A DNA stretch of 33,728 nt from a virus. The notes below the pieces were generated by a model. The model was not told where the DNA came from. It saw only the letters and a program-made list of their open reading frames with translations, and searched no databases. The DNA is taken from positions 1-33,728 of the IMG/VR virus record IMGVR_UViG_3300030389_001350; one strand, written 5' to 3'. The first letter of the stretch is position 1, and every line of letters starts with the position of its first letter. Shown here piece after piece: positions 10,797 to 14,137 of this stretch. The position numbers and the translations under genes were made by a program.

Positions 10797-11041
10797 TGTC
10801 AAAAGGTTTACGATCATGGGTCAGAGCCAACTGGGTAGATATTGCTAACCCAAAGAAAGGCGGTGGCTTTCCTAAGTGTGGTCGTAGCAAGGGTGAGAAA
10901 AGAAGAAACTATCCTAAGTGTGTACCCGCAGCGAAAGCTAGAGCCATGTCACCAAGTCAAAGACGAGCTGCTGTGTCAAGAAAACAATCTGCTGAAAGAA
11001 GAAGTCGTAAAGGTAAAAGACCTAACTACGCAAGGACTTAA
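10796..11041 (+). CDS. DUF5872/DUF6321-like basic protein
   Basis: This 81-residue protein has LRSWVRANWVDIANPKKGGG, FPKCGRSKGEKRRNYPKCVP and AAKARAMSPSQRRAAVSRKQ, with a very basic C-terminus. The KGGG(F/W)..CGR..GE.R..YP.C.P signature occurs in small proteins (DUF5872/6321-type) of many phages and large viruses. The paired CG...YPKC suggests metal binding. It is the last gene of the basic micro-protein operon. Its 3' end overlaps the end of the leftward DnaA-like gene by 20 nt (convergent). The overlapping plus-strand frame 10842-11045 is a shadow. Confidence 0.7.
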   Translation: MSKGLRSWVRANWVDIANPKKGGGFPKCGRSKGEKRRNYPKCVPAAKARAMSPSQRRAAVSRKQSAERRSRKGKRPNYART

Positions 11042-11564
11042 CTAATTCTTTTTTAATTTTTTCATAGTCTTGCCAAACTAATTCTAAAGGTTTCCATATA
11101 CCAACTTGTTTTACTTTTTGCCTTCTGTGATGGATGACAGTTGAGTGATCAAAATTAAAAAACATTCCTAGCTTTGGTGTTGATATATTAAAATGTTCCA
11201 AGCAATAATTTATAATAACACTTCTCGGCTTTACAATATAAGCTAACCTTCTTCTACTATAAACTTCTTGAGGACTAATACAAAAATGATTAGCAACAAC
11301 TCTAACAATATTACTAAATGTTTCATAGCCAACAGGATGTTTATCATCCACTCTTTTTTTAATCTGTTCACGATCATCTTTCATCTTCATTCTATCTGCT
11401 AGTTGTTGGCTTTTAAAAACAAGATGAGCTTCTGCCATACGATAACCATTTTTAAATCCTGTTCTGTATATCTGTAGCTCTCTTGGTGATAGTTCTCTAT
11501 ACATGATAGCTTTCATGCCTAGCTTAATTTGTTTTTTTTTCTTATCTATTATTTCAAAGTGCAT
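11022..11564 (-). CDS. Stand-alone DnaA domain IV-like DNA-binding protein
   Basis: This 180-residue protein has a C-terminal half (about 85-155) that matches the DnaA C-terminal DNA-binding domain: IVRVVANHFCISPQEVYS, RRRLAYIVKPRSVIINYCLE and the signature FDHSTVIHH (D139-H-S-T-V143). The N-terminal part is a basic helical region with no AAA+ ATPase motifs, so this cannot be a full initiator. DnaA domain IV recognises DnaA boxes through the DHSTV helix. The phage protein could recruit host DnaA/DnaB to a phage origin or interfere with host initiation. It is the last gene of the leftward recombination operon. AAGGGAAGC precedes the ATG as ribosome binding site. Confidence 0.78.
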   Translation of the reverse strand: MHFEIIDKKKKQIKLGMKAIMYRELSPRELQIYRTGFKNGYRMAEAHLVFKSQQLADRMKMKDDREQIKKRVDDKHPVGYETFSNIVRVVANHFCISPQEVYSRRRLAYIVKPRSVIINYCLEHFNISTPKLGMFFNFDHSTVIHHRRQKVKQVGIWKPLELVWQDYEKIKKELVKSLRS

Positions 11565-11574
11565 AGCTTCCCTT

Positions 11575-11600
11575 AGTTGTTCTCACAACTCTTTGTTGTT
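11575..11600 (+). terminator. Weak hairpin with T-rich tail
   Basis: AGTTGT-TCTC-ACAACT (6 bp, 4-nt loop) is followed on the plus strand by CTTTGTTGTTTTTTATTT. It could stop plus-strand transcripts that run past the basic micro-protein operon, although it lies more than 500 nt beyond that operon and antisense to the DnaA-like gene. The stem is AU-rich, so this is a weak call. Confidence 0.25.
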
Positions 11601-11616
11601 TTTTATTTAATAAGAG

Positions 11617-11778: not shown

Positions 11779-11968
11779 TTGGTTCTCGACCATTTTCCTC
11801 CTTCACTTTTGTAAAATCAAATTTTAAATTATTGATTTTCACTTCTACAAACTCACCTTTATTCTGTGGGTCAGCAGCCTTCTCAACGTCATCAAACTTT
11901 TCTATATAAGTAAAGTTTGCTTCGCCATTTCGGTATCTTATATATGTTTTTTCCGTTTTGTCAATCAT
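11720..11968 (-). CDS. Small hypothetical protein
   Basis: This 82-residue protein begins MIDKTEKTYIRYRNGEANFT and has FDDVEKAADPQNKGEFVEVK in the middle. The C-terminus is a charged, probably disordered stretch rich in Lys, Glu and Arg. The start overlaps the DUF3310 gene by 8 nt, so it is part of the leftward operon. I recognise no family. Confidence 0.5.
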   Translation of the reverse strand: MIDKTEKTYIRYRNGEANFTYIEKFDDVEKAADPQNKGEFVEVKINNLKFDFTKVKEENGREPNGRDQERPAKDKGLTKKEK

Positions 11969-12173
11969 AGTCTCTCTTGATTGCCATCTCTACATAATGA
12001 ATAGCTTTTAGCAAGTCTTGTTTTTGACCCTTAGCCTTGTGTCTGCATAAATATTTTATAGCATTACCTTCGGCAAACGGGATGTTATTCTTGTTGATAA
12101 ATTCACTTGCTTGGATAGGCATACTTGAGTAGTGATCACCGCCTATTTGTTTTTTATATACATCGTCAGTCAT
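11961..12173 (-). CDS. DUF3310-family phage protein
   Basis: This 70-residue protein has GGDHYSSMPIQASEFINKN, then FAEGNAIKYLCRHKAKGQ and DLLKAIHYVEMAI. This is the DHY....PIQ...FI....FCEGN.IKY..R...K....DL.KA..Y... signature of DUF3310, widespread in phage early regions and sometimes labelled nucleotide kinase-like without proof. It lies in the recombination/replication operon. No Shine-Dalgarno sequence is visible; instead a 14-bp RNA helix ends about 8 nt before the ATG. Confidence 0.8.
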   Translation of the reverse strand: MTDDVYKKQIGGDHYSSMPIQASEFINKNNIPFAEGNAIKYLCRHKAKGQKQDLLKAIHYVEMAIKRDYD

Positions 12174-12181
12174 AATTTAGA

Positions 12182-12247
12182 GCCACGAGACAGAGAAAAA
12201 CAACTCGAAAGGAAGCCAAGGGGATGGCTAAAACTCCGTCTCGTAGC
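12182..12247 (-). ncRNA. Structured RNA element in leftward operon
   Basis: Read on the minus strand, nt 12247-12234 (GCUACGAGACGGAG) pair with nt 12195-12182 (CUCUGUCUCGUGGC) as a 14-bp helix with two G-U wobbles. On the plus strand the same positions would be A-C mismatches, so the helix fits only a leftward transcript. Inside it, nt 12229-12225 and 12218-12214 form AGCCA/UGGCU with the loop UCCCCU. Just upstream, nt 12262-12252 form the near-palindrome GAGCUUAGCUC. The element fills the 91-nt gap between the stop at 12265 and the DUF3310 start at 12173. It could be a cis-regulatory leader, an RNase III processing site or a small RNA. It matches no class I know. Confidence 0.5.
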
Positions 12248-12264
12248 GATTGAGCTAAGCTCTT

Positions 12265-12582
12265 TTATCTTCTACCATAAGTTCCAGTTCTTTGAAAAGG
12301 TTTTTTATACCCACCAAATTGCTGTGGCTTACCCCCACTACCTGATTGTGGTGTACTACTATCGCTTGGTGTAAGTACAACATTCAATCCACCTGTAGGT
12401 GTTCCATCTTCTTGCGTATCATCAAACGCTGCTTGATTATACCAAGTGTTTCCTATCTTAGCTCCTATTCTCCAAGTCTTACCTGCTGGTGACTTAGGAT
12501 TAATAGGTGCAACAAAGCTAGGTCTGTTATCACCTGGCTGTTTGTCGTGATTAGGCATAAGTTTTATATATATCTTATCCAT
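12265..12582 (-). CDS. Hypothetical protein of the recombination operon
   Basis: This 105-residue protein has a folded-looking N-terminal part (MDKIYIKLMPNHDKQPGDNR, KTWRIGAKIGNTWYNQAAFD) and a low-complexity Gly/Gln/Ser/Pro-rich C-terminus. A beta-rich N-domain with a flexible Gly/Gln tail is reminiscent of single-stranded DNA-binding proteins, and its place next to the annealing protein would fit. However, no OB-fold motif can be confirmed, so this stays unnamed. AGGAG lies 8 nt before the ATG, which overlaps the upstream stop. Confidence 0.6.
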   Translation of the reverse strand: MDKIYIKLMPNHDKQPGDNRPSFVAPINPKSPAGKTWRIGAKIGNTWYNQAAFDDTQEDGTPTGGLNVVLTPSDSSTPQSGSGGKPQQFGGYKKPFQRTGTYGRR

Positions 12583-13190
12583 TATATTTTCTCCTGTTTA
12601 GTTATTAAGTTCATCCTAGATTTGAAAGCATTATCTAGCAATCTAAAATCTTTTGGATGATTTTTTTCTGTCTCTACAAACGTAGGTCTATACACATGAT
12701 AACGAAGATGATTTAATCTTGTTTCATGTGGAGCTTTCTTTAACTCCTCTACAATTTGTTTGACGGGTACACCTCTTGTATTTGAGGTGTCTTTAGCTTC
12801 CTTGGTGGTTGGTATACCTAAAGATTCTAACTCTTCGAGGGAGGTTATGTCTTTATCCAACACACCAAGAAAACTTAAAGCTCGTGAAATAGAGAAACTT
12901 TCTGCCATAGGCAAAGCACCTTGAATGTATGTGCCATTTCTCTTTTTAAATTGTTTATAATGTCCTGTAGCTAACACACGTTCAGGATCATAAGCTATGA
13001 TCTTACACTTGGCAATGTAATAATCTTCTTCTTCAAAAACTGATACATCAAACCCAAGTTGATCACCAAAGACTTGTCTAAAATATTTTATCTTGCTCCA
13101 CAAAGAAACAGTTGTCTGACCTGTTGTAAGGTTTTTATATACTCCGTCTCTTCTACATAACTCATTTACTCTATCTATTTTTTCTTTCAT
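12582..13190 (-). CDS. Putative single-strand annealing protein
   Basis: The start at 13190 has a GGGGA ribosome binding site at a good distance; ATG 13202 is also in frame. About 202 residues. A beta-rich middle (DVSVFEEEDYYIAKCKIIAY, VLATGHYKQF) is followed by PMAESFSISRALSFLGV, the (E)..A.SRAL.FLG pattern common to Erf/Rad52-like phage recombinases. The C-terminal half is helical and charged. It directly follows the PD-(D/E)XK exonuclease gene, so the pair is probably a lambda exo/beta-like recombination system. The annealing role is inferred from motif and context; it could instead belong to another phage DNA-metabolism family. Confidence 0.55.
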   Translation of the reverse strand: MKEKIDRVNELCRRDGVYKNLTTGQTTVSLWSKIKYFRQVFGDQLGFDVSVFEEEDYYIAKCKIIAYDPERVLATGHYKQFKKRNGTYIQGALPMAESFSISRALSFLGVLDKDITSLEELESLGIPTTKEAKDTSNTRGVPVKQIVEELKKAPHETRLNHLRYHVYRPTFVETEKNHPKDFRLLDNAFKSRMNLITKQEKI

Positions 13191-13192
13191 GT

Positions 13193-14137
13193 TTATCCCC
13201 ATAGTTGTTTTATTACTGCTAGTTGATCTGCACTAGCATCTTTCATAGTCCAATGTGATAGATCAGGTTTCTCTACAAGACCTGCCATCACCTTTGGATC
13301 GCCATTACTTACTTCAAGTAATCTCTGTATGGTCATAGCTTTCTGTACCATTTCGCTATAACAATATTCTAAATGATCATCCCATAATGCAGGATGATTG
13401 TTGTCAAAAATAATATAATCTTTTTCATTTACATAAAACAAGAAAGGTTGTTTCTCTGTTGCTAATCTATAAAAGGCTACTTGGTTTATGTTAATAGGAT
13501 CAGGTTCAGTTGGTAGTTTCTGTGTATAAATTTTTATATTATTTAAATCTAATCCTCTGACACTTGGAGGTTTTACTTTTTGTTCTGCAAATTCATGACT
13601 TGCTTCCCAATCTAATCTTCCTAAAATATCTATACCTAAATTTTGTGGAGACATTGATACATATCTTTCACACATCAAAGGTTTACTGCCAAATATTTCT
13701 TTAACTACTTTTAATACATTCTTTATGGTATCATGTAATTTATCAACAACCATTTCTTTAATCTTATCATCTCTTTGATCGTAACTTTCTTTTTTATAAA
13801 GATCGTACTCATAATTAAATATAGTATTGTAATCTCTATTTTTTATTTCTTCTCTCTCTGCACCTTTGAATACATACTTGCCAATCAATCTTTGTGCTAC
13901 GTTGCCTGATACTGATCCATAACCTAGCTTAAAGTTTTTCTTGTCAGCTCTTCTACGCTTTTGATCTCGGACAAAGTAATCTACAATCCACATACCAATA
14001 GGTTTTGTTTTTGAAAGCTGTGTAAAGCTAAAGTGATCTTGACCTAGACCACCATTTGTTTTTTCATAAAGTTGTTTTAAATTAAGTTGTTCTACTTTAT
14101 TACTACTTGGATAACCGCTATAAGTATAATCTGTCAT
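13193..14137 (-). CDS. PD-(D/E)XK exonuclease (Cas4/RecB-like)
   Basis: The start at 14137 gives 314 residues; the longer frame to 14230 would cross the control region and overlap the cro-side promoter. Motifs: GIDILGRLDWEASHEFAEQK with D176 and E185-x-K187 as the PD-(D/E)XK core, then the QxxxY motif at Q219-VAF-Y223 typical of RecB/Cas4-type nucleases. No Cas4 cysteines are seen. The enzyme probably resects DNA ends for the annealing protein encoded downstream. It is the first gene of the leftward early operon, with AGAAAG as a weak ribosome binding site. Confidence 0.8.
   Translation of the reverse strand: MTDYTYSGYPSSNKVEQLNLKQLYEKTNGGLGQDHFSFTQLSKTKPIGMWIVDYFVRDQKRRRADKKNFKLGYGSVSGNVAQRLIGKYVFKGAEREEIKNRDYNTIFNYEYDLYKKESYDQRDDKIKEMVVDKLHDTIKNVLKVVKEIFGSKPLMCERYVSMSPQNLGIDILGRLDWEASHEFAEQKVKPPSVRGLDLNNIKIYTQKLPTEPDPININQVAFYRLATEKQPFLFYVNEKDYIIFDNNHPALWDDHLEYCYSEMVQKAMTIQRLLEVSNGDPKVMAGLVEKPDLSHWTMKDASADQLAVIKQLWG

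Follow-up and report, generated by a model that had tools for sequence, protein, structure and literature searches.

A conserved hairpin RNA family on the sense strand of the early recombination/replication operon in HTVC010P-type pelagiphages

Two genes of a leftward phage operon, p105 and a DUF3310 gene, are separated by a gap of 91 nt (12174-12264) in the window, the whole 33,728-nt stretch of viral DNA analysed here. Does the RNA of this gap fold into a structure that relatives have kept, and what might such a structure do?

The hairpin and its operon

The window is an HTVC010P-type pelagiphage, and HTVC010P and HTVC034P are the best annotated relatives of the region. Pelagiphages infect SAR11 bacteria, and HTVC010P-type phages are among the most abundant marine viruses. 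In the isolates the genes follow the order nuclease, single-strand annealing protein, p105, hairpin element, at least one small gene and a DnaA-like gene. The window has the same order, its last gene encoding a DnaA C-terminal domain. The HTVC100P ortholog of the annealing protein is Erf-like (phrog_155, E 1e-14). Relatives of p105 were found in 19 phage records, pelagiphages without exception, and none was found in bacterial genome contigs. The features of the region are as follows.

12582..13202, minus strand: single-strand annealing protein gene; orthologs are annotated SSAP
12265..12582, minus strand: p105, a small beta-rich protein of 105 aa, always the 5' neighbour of the element
12252..12262, minus strand: P0, a small hairpin (GAGC-UUA-GCUC) past the p105 stop, found in many types but not all
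12182..12247, minus strand: whole structured RNA element; fold z -5.3; covariance-model match of 73.3 bits at 12248-12182
12234..12247, minus strand: P1 5' arm, GCUACGAGACGGAG, forming a 14-bp helix with 12182-12195; all 13 anchored pairs are compensated in relatives
12230..12233, minus strand: 5' U-tract UUUU; four U in the window type, 6-8 in other types
12225..12229, minus strand: P2 5' arm AGCCA, pairing with 12214-12218; C-G to U-A covariation
12219..12224, minus strand: apical loop UCCCCU, containing the conserved CCC(U)U motif; CCCTT in 49/49 distinct stems
12214..12218, minus strand: P2 3' arm UGGCU; C-G to U-A covariation with the P2 5' arm
12196..12205, minus strand: 3' segment AGUUGUUUUU, with conserved GUUUU immediately 5' of the P1 3' arm
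12182..12195, minus strand: P1 3' arm, CUCUGUCUCGUGGC, partner of 12234-12247 on the same basis
11961..12173, minus strand: DUF3310 gene (Pfam PF11753, E 5e-9), an exchangeable downstream neighbour that is replaced in relatives
11022..11564, minus strand: DnaA C-terminal-domain protein (PF08299, E 3e-15), last gene of the operon

The minus strand from 12247 to 12182 folds as GCUACGAGACGGAG-UUUU-AGCCA-UCCCCU-UGGCU-UCCUUUCG-AGUUGUUUUU-CUCUGUCUCGUGGC, with a minimum free energy of -29 kcal/mol, and none of 200 shuffles folded as well. The fold, a 14-bp helix enclosing a 5-bp inner hairpin, agrees with an earlier, sequence-only reading of the locus, which had described a 14-bp helix with two G-U pairs on the minus strand and an inner hairpin whose UCCCCU loop resembles an anti-Shine-Dalgarno sequence. 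That reading had also let the element fill the whole gap before the DUF3310 gene. It occupies most of it, but the gap also holds P0 and, next to the start codon, a spacer of 8 nt. The DUF3310 gene starts at 12173 behind ...CUCUAAAUUAUG and indeed lacks a Shine-Dalgarno sequence. The claim that the element was undescribed also stands: Rfam 15 gave no match at the gathering threshold in the window and none at E<=1 in five relatives, and the genome paper of Skadi-1, another HTVC010P-type member, found no terminators, tRNA, tmRNA or riboswitches (PMC10504331).

Several familiar identities were considered and rejected. ARAGORN returned no tRNA or tmRNA match in the window. The tRNA-like look of the 5' flank (TAGTTCAATGG, TTAGCTCAATC) is not common to the other types and was judged to be chance. 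An intrinsic terminator would have a short loop and a U-run behind the stem; here the loop measures 19-70 nt and the stem is followed by A-rich or mixed sequence (AAAUUAUG, AAAACAAUAUG, AAAAAAGG), and a terminator scan did not list the element.

Conservation of the stem and the loop

Loci were collected from viral contigs, in four scans based on p105 and two based on a DNA pattern. The hairpin core was readable in 375 loci, overlapping fetches of one contig being counted more than once. A long GC-rich stem lies directly 3' of p105 in 117 of 118 distinct regions and in all 41 HTVC100P-type regions, so that the same hairpin follows p105 in 158 of 159 distinct downstream regions; it does so in ten isolate genomes as well. 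The sole exception, L097, keeps the stem and has a loop without the CCCUU-type motif. A search with the loop sequence only, which is independent of p105, again gave matches right 3' of p105 wherever the contig was long enough.

For the check by covariation across homologous intergenic regions that the sequence-only reading had proposed, 50 distinct stems were aligned with a constant linker in place of their loops. Both sides had changed at all 13 pairs, with 219 compensated cells against 71±7 in shuffles. The covariation score was 0.97 (0.26±0.02 in shuffles), and 95.8% of the cells were paired, compared with 48-66% after sliding. The natural alignment of 13 window-type sequences contained 34 compensated cells versus 12±3, with 94.9% paired versus 39-49% when slid. 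Compensatory changes thus exceed both the shuffled and the slid controls, which identifies a conserved structured RNA. Pairing is also strand-specific, as had been proposed, and fits an RNA made in the operon direction. Among the inner 12 pairs of 49 distinct stems (588 cells) there were 74 G-U, 1 A-C and 12 other mismatches, a 74:1 ratio that is somewhat biased in that the helix finder gave credit for G-U pairs and none for A-C, with the register fixed by the flanking U-tracts. A symmetric, unanchored count gave 125 G-U to 62 A-C, because the helix ends then lengthen by chance.

A covariance model (R1) built from the 13 window-type sequences alone recovered the element at the syntenic position in most isolates, with E values from 4e-5 to 7e-3, and missed HTVC010P itself. 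Each genome carries one copy: over whole records R1 detected no second copy above noise, a weak extra match occurring in HTVC034P (E 0.025), and a search for second copies within the phage genome returned weak matches only. Run on 100 genomes from the family (unconfirmed as Pelagibacteraceae) to which a marine alphaproteobacterial single-cell genome belongs, R1 gave no match, which proves little.

Four forms of the hairpin occur among the relatives. In the simplest (HTVC100P, HTVC024P, Greip), a stem of 12-13 bp closes the loop U6-8-CCCUUUC-n-CGUUUU, and P2 is absent from this type. Skadi and HTVC203P have the loop U6-CUUUCUAGUUCCCUUUCGGUAGUUUU. The window type and the HTVC010P type possess the extra inner hairpin P2, which presents CCCUU in its loop. 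The common layout is U4-8, then CCCUU, then GUUUU ahead of the 3' arm. In the first set of distinct stems, CCCUU is present in 49 of 49 loops, the loop starts with TTTT (U4 or more) in 47 of 49, and it ends on GTTT(T) plus 0-2 bases in all 49; some loci have CCTTT instead of CCCTT. HTVC010P-type relatives contain 16 different P2 stem sequences, and at least 5 bp form in all 33 distinct loops, a length often reached by chance. The mean P2 score is the better measure, and it was 15.2 compared with 12.3 for swapped and 11.2 for shuffled sequences. HTVC100P-type isolates (L294-L299) also have a second hairpin of about 10 bp, UAUACCUUUUAA...AAAGGGUAUC, over the p105 stop codon and abutting P1.

Taken across these loci, the comparisons establish a family of conserved hairpin RNAs, encoded on the sense strand of the early operon for recombination and replication in HTVC010P-type pelagiphages. 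As judged from the alignments, the stem is retained solely for pairing and the pyrimidine-rich loop for its sequence. With stem pairing kept under sequence change and the loop nearly constant, the hairpin is almost certainly functional.

Downstream genes and a candidate partner of the loop

The sequence-only reading had proposed a specific role in DUF3310 translation. This did not survive the comparison: the element always follows p105, and about half of the loci have another gene downstream. The downstream families are MazG/DUF6378-like (168 loci), DUF3310 (162 loci), two methyltransferase-like groups, a MazG-like gene and a SET-like gene, all names except DUF3310 having been assigned by reading the sequences. 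DUF3310-specific control is therefore unlikely, the downstream gene being exchangeable while p105 is constant. A general role in translation start for any downstream gene keeps some plausibility, since the start codon lies 6-17 nt 3' of the stem in 341 of 345 loci; in a few loci the distance exceeds 30 nt. Except in the HTVC100P clade and Lederberg, a Shine-Dalgarno sequence is missing from most of the downstream genes examined. The slot 3' of the hairpin (12174-12181, minus strand, in the window, and its counterpart in relatives) is an exchange hot spot for genes.

The stem varies freely in sequence and the loop does not, so that recognition, by RNA or by protein, probably targets the loop. 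Two stretches of the operon are candidate RNA partners.

11570..11581, minus strand: AACAACU-AAGGG in the DnaA-like leader, candidate partner of 12196-12205 and 12219-12224 by antiparallel complementarity
13195..13211, minus strand: AAAACAACU-AU-GGGGAU at the annealing-protein start, second candidate partner with 9+6 complementary bases

The best mechanism that we can offer is a hairpin acting in cis on the operon mRNA, whose pyrimidine loop would pair with the Shine-Dalgarno sequence of the DnaA-like gene; from the sequence comparisons we put its probability at about 0.3. The stem would present CCCUU and GUUUU as single strands, and these would pair, roughly 600 nt further downstream, with the A-rich stretch and the GGGG-type Shine-Dalgarno sequence that precede the DnaA-like gene, with possible further pairing to the GGGG site at the annealing-protein start. 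Such pairing would restrain translation of the replication initiator, and opening of the hairpin, whether by ribosomes, by an RNA-binding protein or by the SSB-like p105, would end the restraint. A broader reading, in which the loop coevolves with the DnaA-like leader and times its translation as an RNA-based control of replication initiation, with p105 perhaps acting as the sensor, is doubtful.

CCCUU is the complement of AAGGG. In every clade examined the DnaA-like leader has an A-rich stretch followed by AGGG(G), antiparallel in order to CCCUU...GUUUU. Furthermore, the base before GUUUU covaries with the leader: the loop and leader sequences are CGUUUU and AAAACG in the HTVC100P type, AGUUUU and AAAACU in Skadi, UUUGUUUU and AAAACAAA in HTVC010P, and AGUUGUU and AACAACU in the window. 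The pairing within each clade was the best in every row (one tie), and its total was the lowest, rank 1 of 24 clade permutations, a single permutation with p at best about 0.04 for a target chosen post hoc, after the sequences had been seen. Shine-Dalgarno sites of the GGGG kind are uncommon among these phages outside the window type, where AAGGA is dominant. By a bipartite score the DnaA-like leader falls in the top 1-11% of gene leaders (median 4.5%), not first. In a whole-loop duplex search it was the best site in only 1 of 13 genomes, the top sites being mostly chance. A swap test across all leaders was initially significant, driven by leaders that are antisense to the element itself; after removal of these, own-loop pairing was not significantly better (p = 0.13). 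In the window type, moreover, ACAACU of the leader can pair locally with AGUUGU, a point against loop-leader pairing. Nested mRNA folding cannot represent the loop-leader contact while P1 is formed.

The DnaA-like leader (window 11565-11616, minus strand) is strongly conserved across clades, with an A-rich stretch, AGGGG and ATG, and in the window type it carries a local hairpin AGUUGU-GNRA-ACAACU ahead of AAGGG. The second candidate partner overlaps the end of the nuclease coding sequence (LWG-stop), as does ATGGGGATAA. The start of the annealing protein (window 13190-13202, minus strand) may be the second ATG (MKEKIDRVNEL), in which case GGGGAU would be its Shine-Dalgarno sequence. In several relatives, the GAAAGGGAA leaders of early rightward genes are perfectly complementary, over 12-16 nt, to the hairpin loop of the same genome (near 2056 in L386, 1875 in L388, 4907 in L393 and 1901 in L396).

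Competing explanations and meaning for the phages

The main rival, which we consider unlikely though not negligible, makes the hairpin an operator for p105: an SSB-like p105 would bind the U/C-rich loop 3' of its own gene and regulate its own operon. The constant companion of the element is p105, not the downstream gene, even when loci are found by the p105-independent DNA pattern, and the place of p105 in the order exonuclease, annealing protein, SSB suits an SSB. Position and weak fold similarity hint that p105 may be SSB-like. Its AlphaFold model (mean pLDDT 74) weakly resembles the folds of a phage SSB and of a DUF736 protein (matches at ranks 12-13), and its C-termini in the HTVC100P clade, EYTF or EYNF, may correspond to SSB tails. 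Nevertheless, p105 is a putative SSB, as it has no Pfam or PHROG match and no PDB match at E<=0.001. The hairpin also lies 3' of the p105 gene and not within its leader, and a sequence-specific CCCUU exceeds the need of a general SSB. A precedent is gp32, the SSB of T4, which autoregulates through a folded RNA and an unstructured stretch in its own mRNA, and two diverged operators are recognised in T4 and RB69 (PMC535899). Both systems combine structured and unstructured parts in a phage mRNA element beside a presumed SSB gene of a replication/recombination module. The T4 operator is located 5' of gene 32 and consists of a pseudoknot and UUAAA repeats (PMC535899), whereas here a 13-14 bp hairpin with a C/U-rich loop stands 3' of p105, and p105 is a putative SSB. 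Similarly questionable is a boundary hairpin between cistrons, governing how the mRNA is processed or stabilised at the junction of p105 with its follower, or forming a structured start site for any gene that comes next, by the logic of T7 RNase III sites or standby sites and with DUF3310 control as one case. The position directly behind the p105 stop, the distance of 6-17 nt to the start codon in 341 of 345 loci despite differing genes, and the lack of Shine-Dalgarno sequences noted above all suit it. Cleavage or stabilisation, however, requires a structure and not a conserved loop, and the loop is the most conserved part here; a few starts lie beyond 30 nt, and short spacers are expected anyway in compact phage genomes. 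T7 early mRNA carries intercistronic RNase III processing hairpins with an internal loop, and the present hairpin resembles them in form and in its place in an early operon; it differs in its conserved loop sequence and single site per genome, and its cleavage would be hypothetical.

A trans-acting small RNA, excised from the operon mRNA so that its loop pairs with the Shine-Dalgarno sequences of several early phage or host genes as a mimic of the 16S tail (CCUCCUUUCU versus UUCCCUUUCU), appears improbable. Perfect leader complements of 16 nt in HTVC204P, 13 nt in HTVC100P and Lederberg and 12 nt in Skadi-1, the last taking in the Skadi-specific loop flank, would fit it, as would the tail sequence GGATCACCTCCTTTCT in 11 of 20 relatives of the marine alphaproteobacterial single-cell genome. 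These complements nonetheless fall on unrelated genes and are missing from other genomes, the element has neither a terminator nor a promoter of its own above chance, and the swap test bears on this idea as well, own loops being no better than swapped ones. Staphylococcus sRNAs with UCCC loops and alphaproteobacterial CCUCC sRNAs expose an unpaired C/U-rich loop complementary to the Shine-Dalgarno sequence. The hairpin shares such a loop, but has no own promoter or terminator and no Rfam match, and is a single copy within an operon. That the element works as single-stranded DNA instead of RNA, for instance as a signal for replication or packaging carried by the displaced strand, we regard as very improbable. 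The site in a recombination/replication module would suit such a role, and covariation alone cannot separate RNA from single-stranded DNA because G-T is also a mild mismatch; against it, the element is on the coding (mRNA) strand inside an operon, and G-U pairs are frequent (74/588), which is typical of RNA helices.

Pairing of the loop with the DnaA-like leader, the reading that we prefer, also has known counterparts. In the MS2 long-distance interaction and in plasmid copA-copT, RNA pairing hides the start of a replication gene, and the logic proposed here is likewise one of masking. The phage hairpin differs in being encoded in the sense direction, far upstream, as a dedicated hairpin, and its pairing is predicted. 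ENE and related poly(A)-binding elements with U-rich internal loops come from eukaryotes and their viruses. U-tracts flank a GC stem on both sides in these elements as in ours, which has no Rfam match and whose conserved CCCUU has no ENE counterpart.

Structured regulatory elements in phage operons are a known general class, to which the hairpin belongs as a new RNA family with an unusual association and loop. It adds an RNA of about 50-100 nt, at some 375 partly overlapping viral loci, that genome annotation had overlooked, in a phage group whose consulted literature reports no structured RNA. The SAR11 infection transcriptomes of 2025 cover HTVC022P and HTVC027P, which are of other types than HTVC010P (PMC12753301). 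Since Skadi-1 has no RNA polymerase or DNA polymerase of its own (PMC10504331), gene timing in HTVC010P-type phages is a question, and a conserved RNA in their recombination/replication operon offers a concrete, testable handle on it. Loop-leader pairing, if true, would predict exact compensatory mutations.
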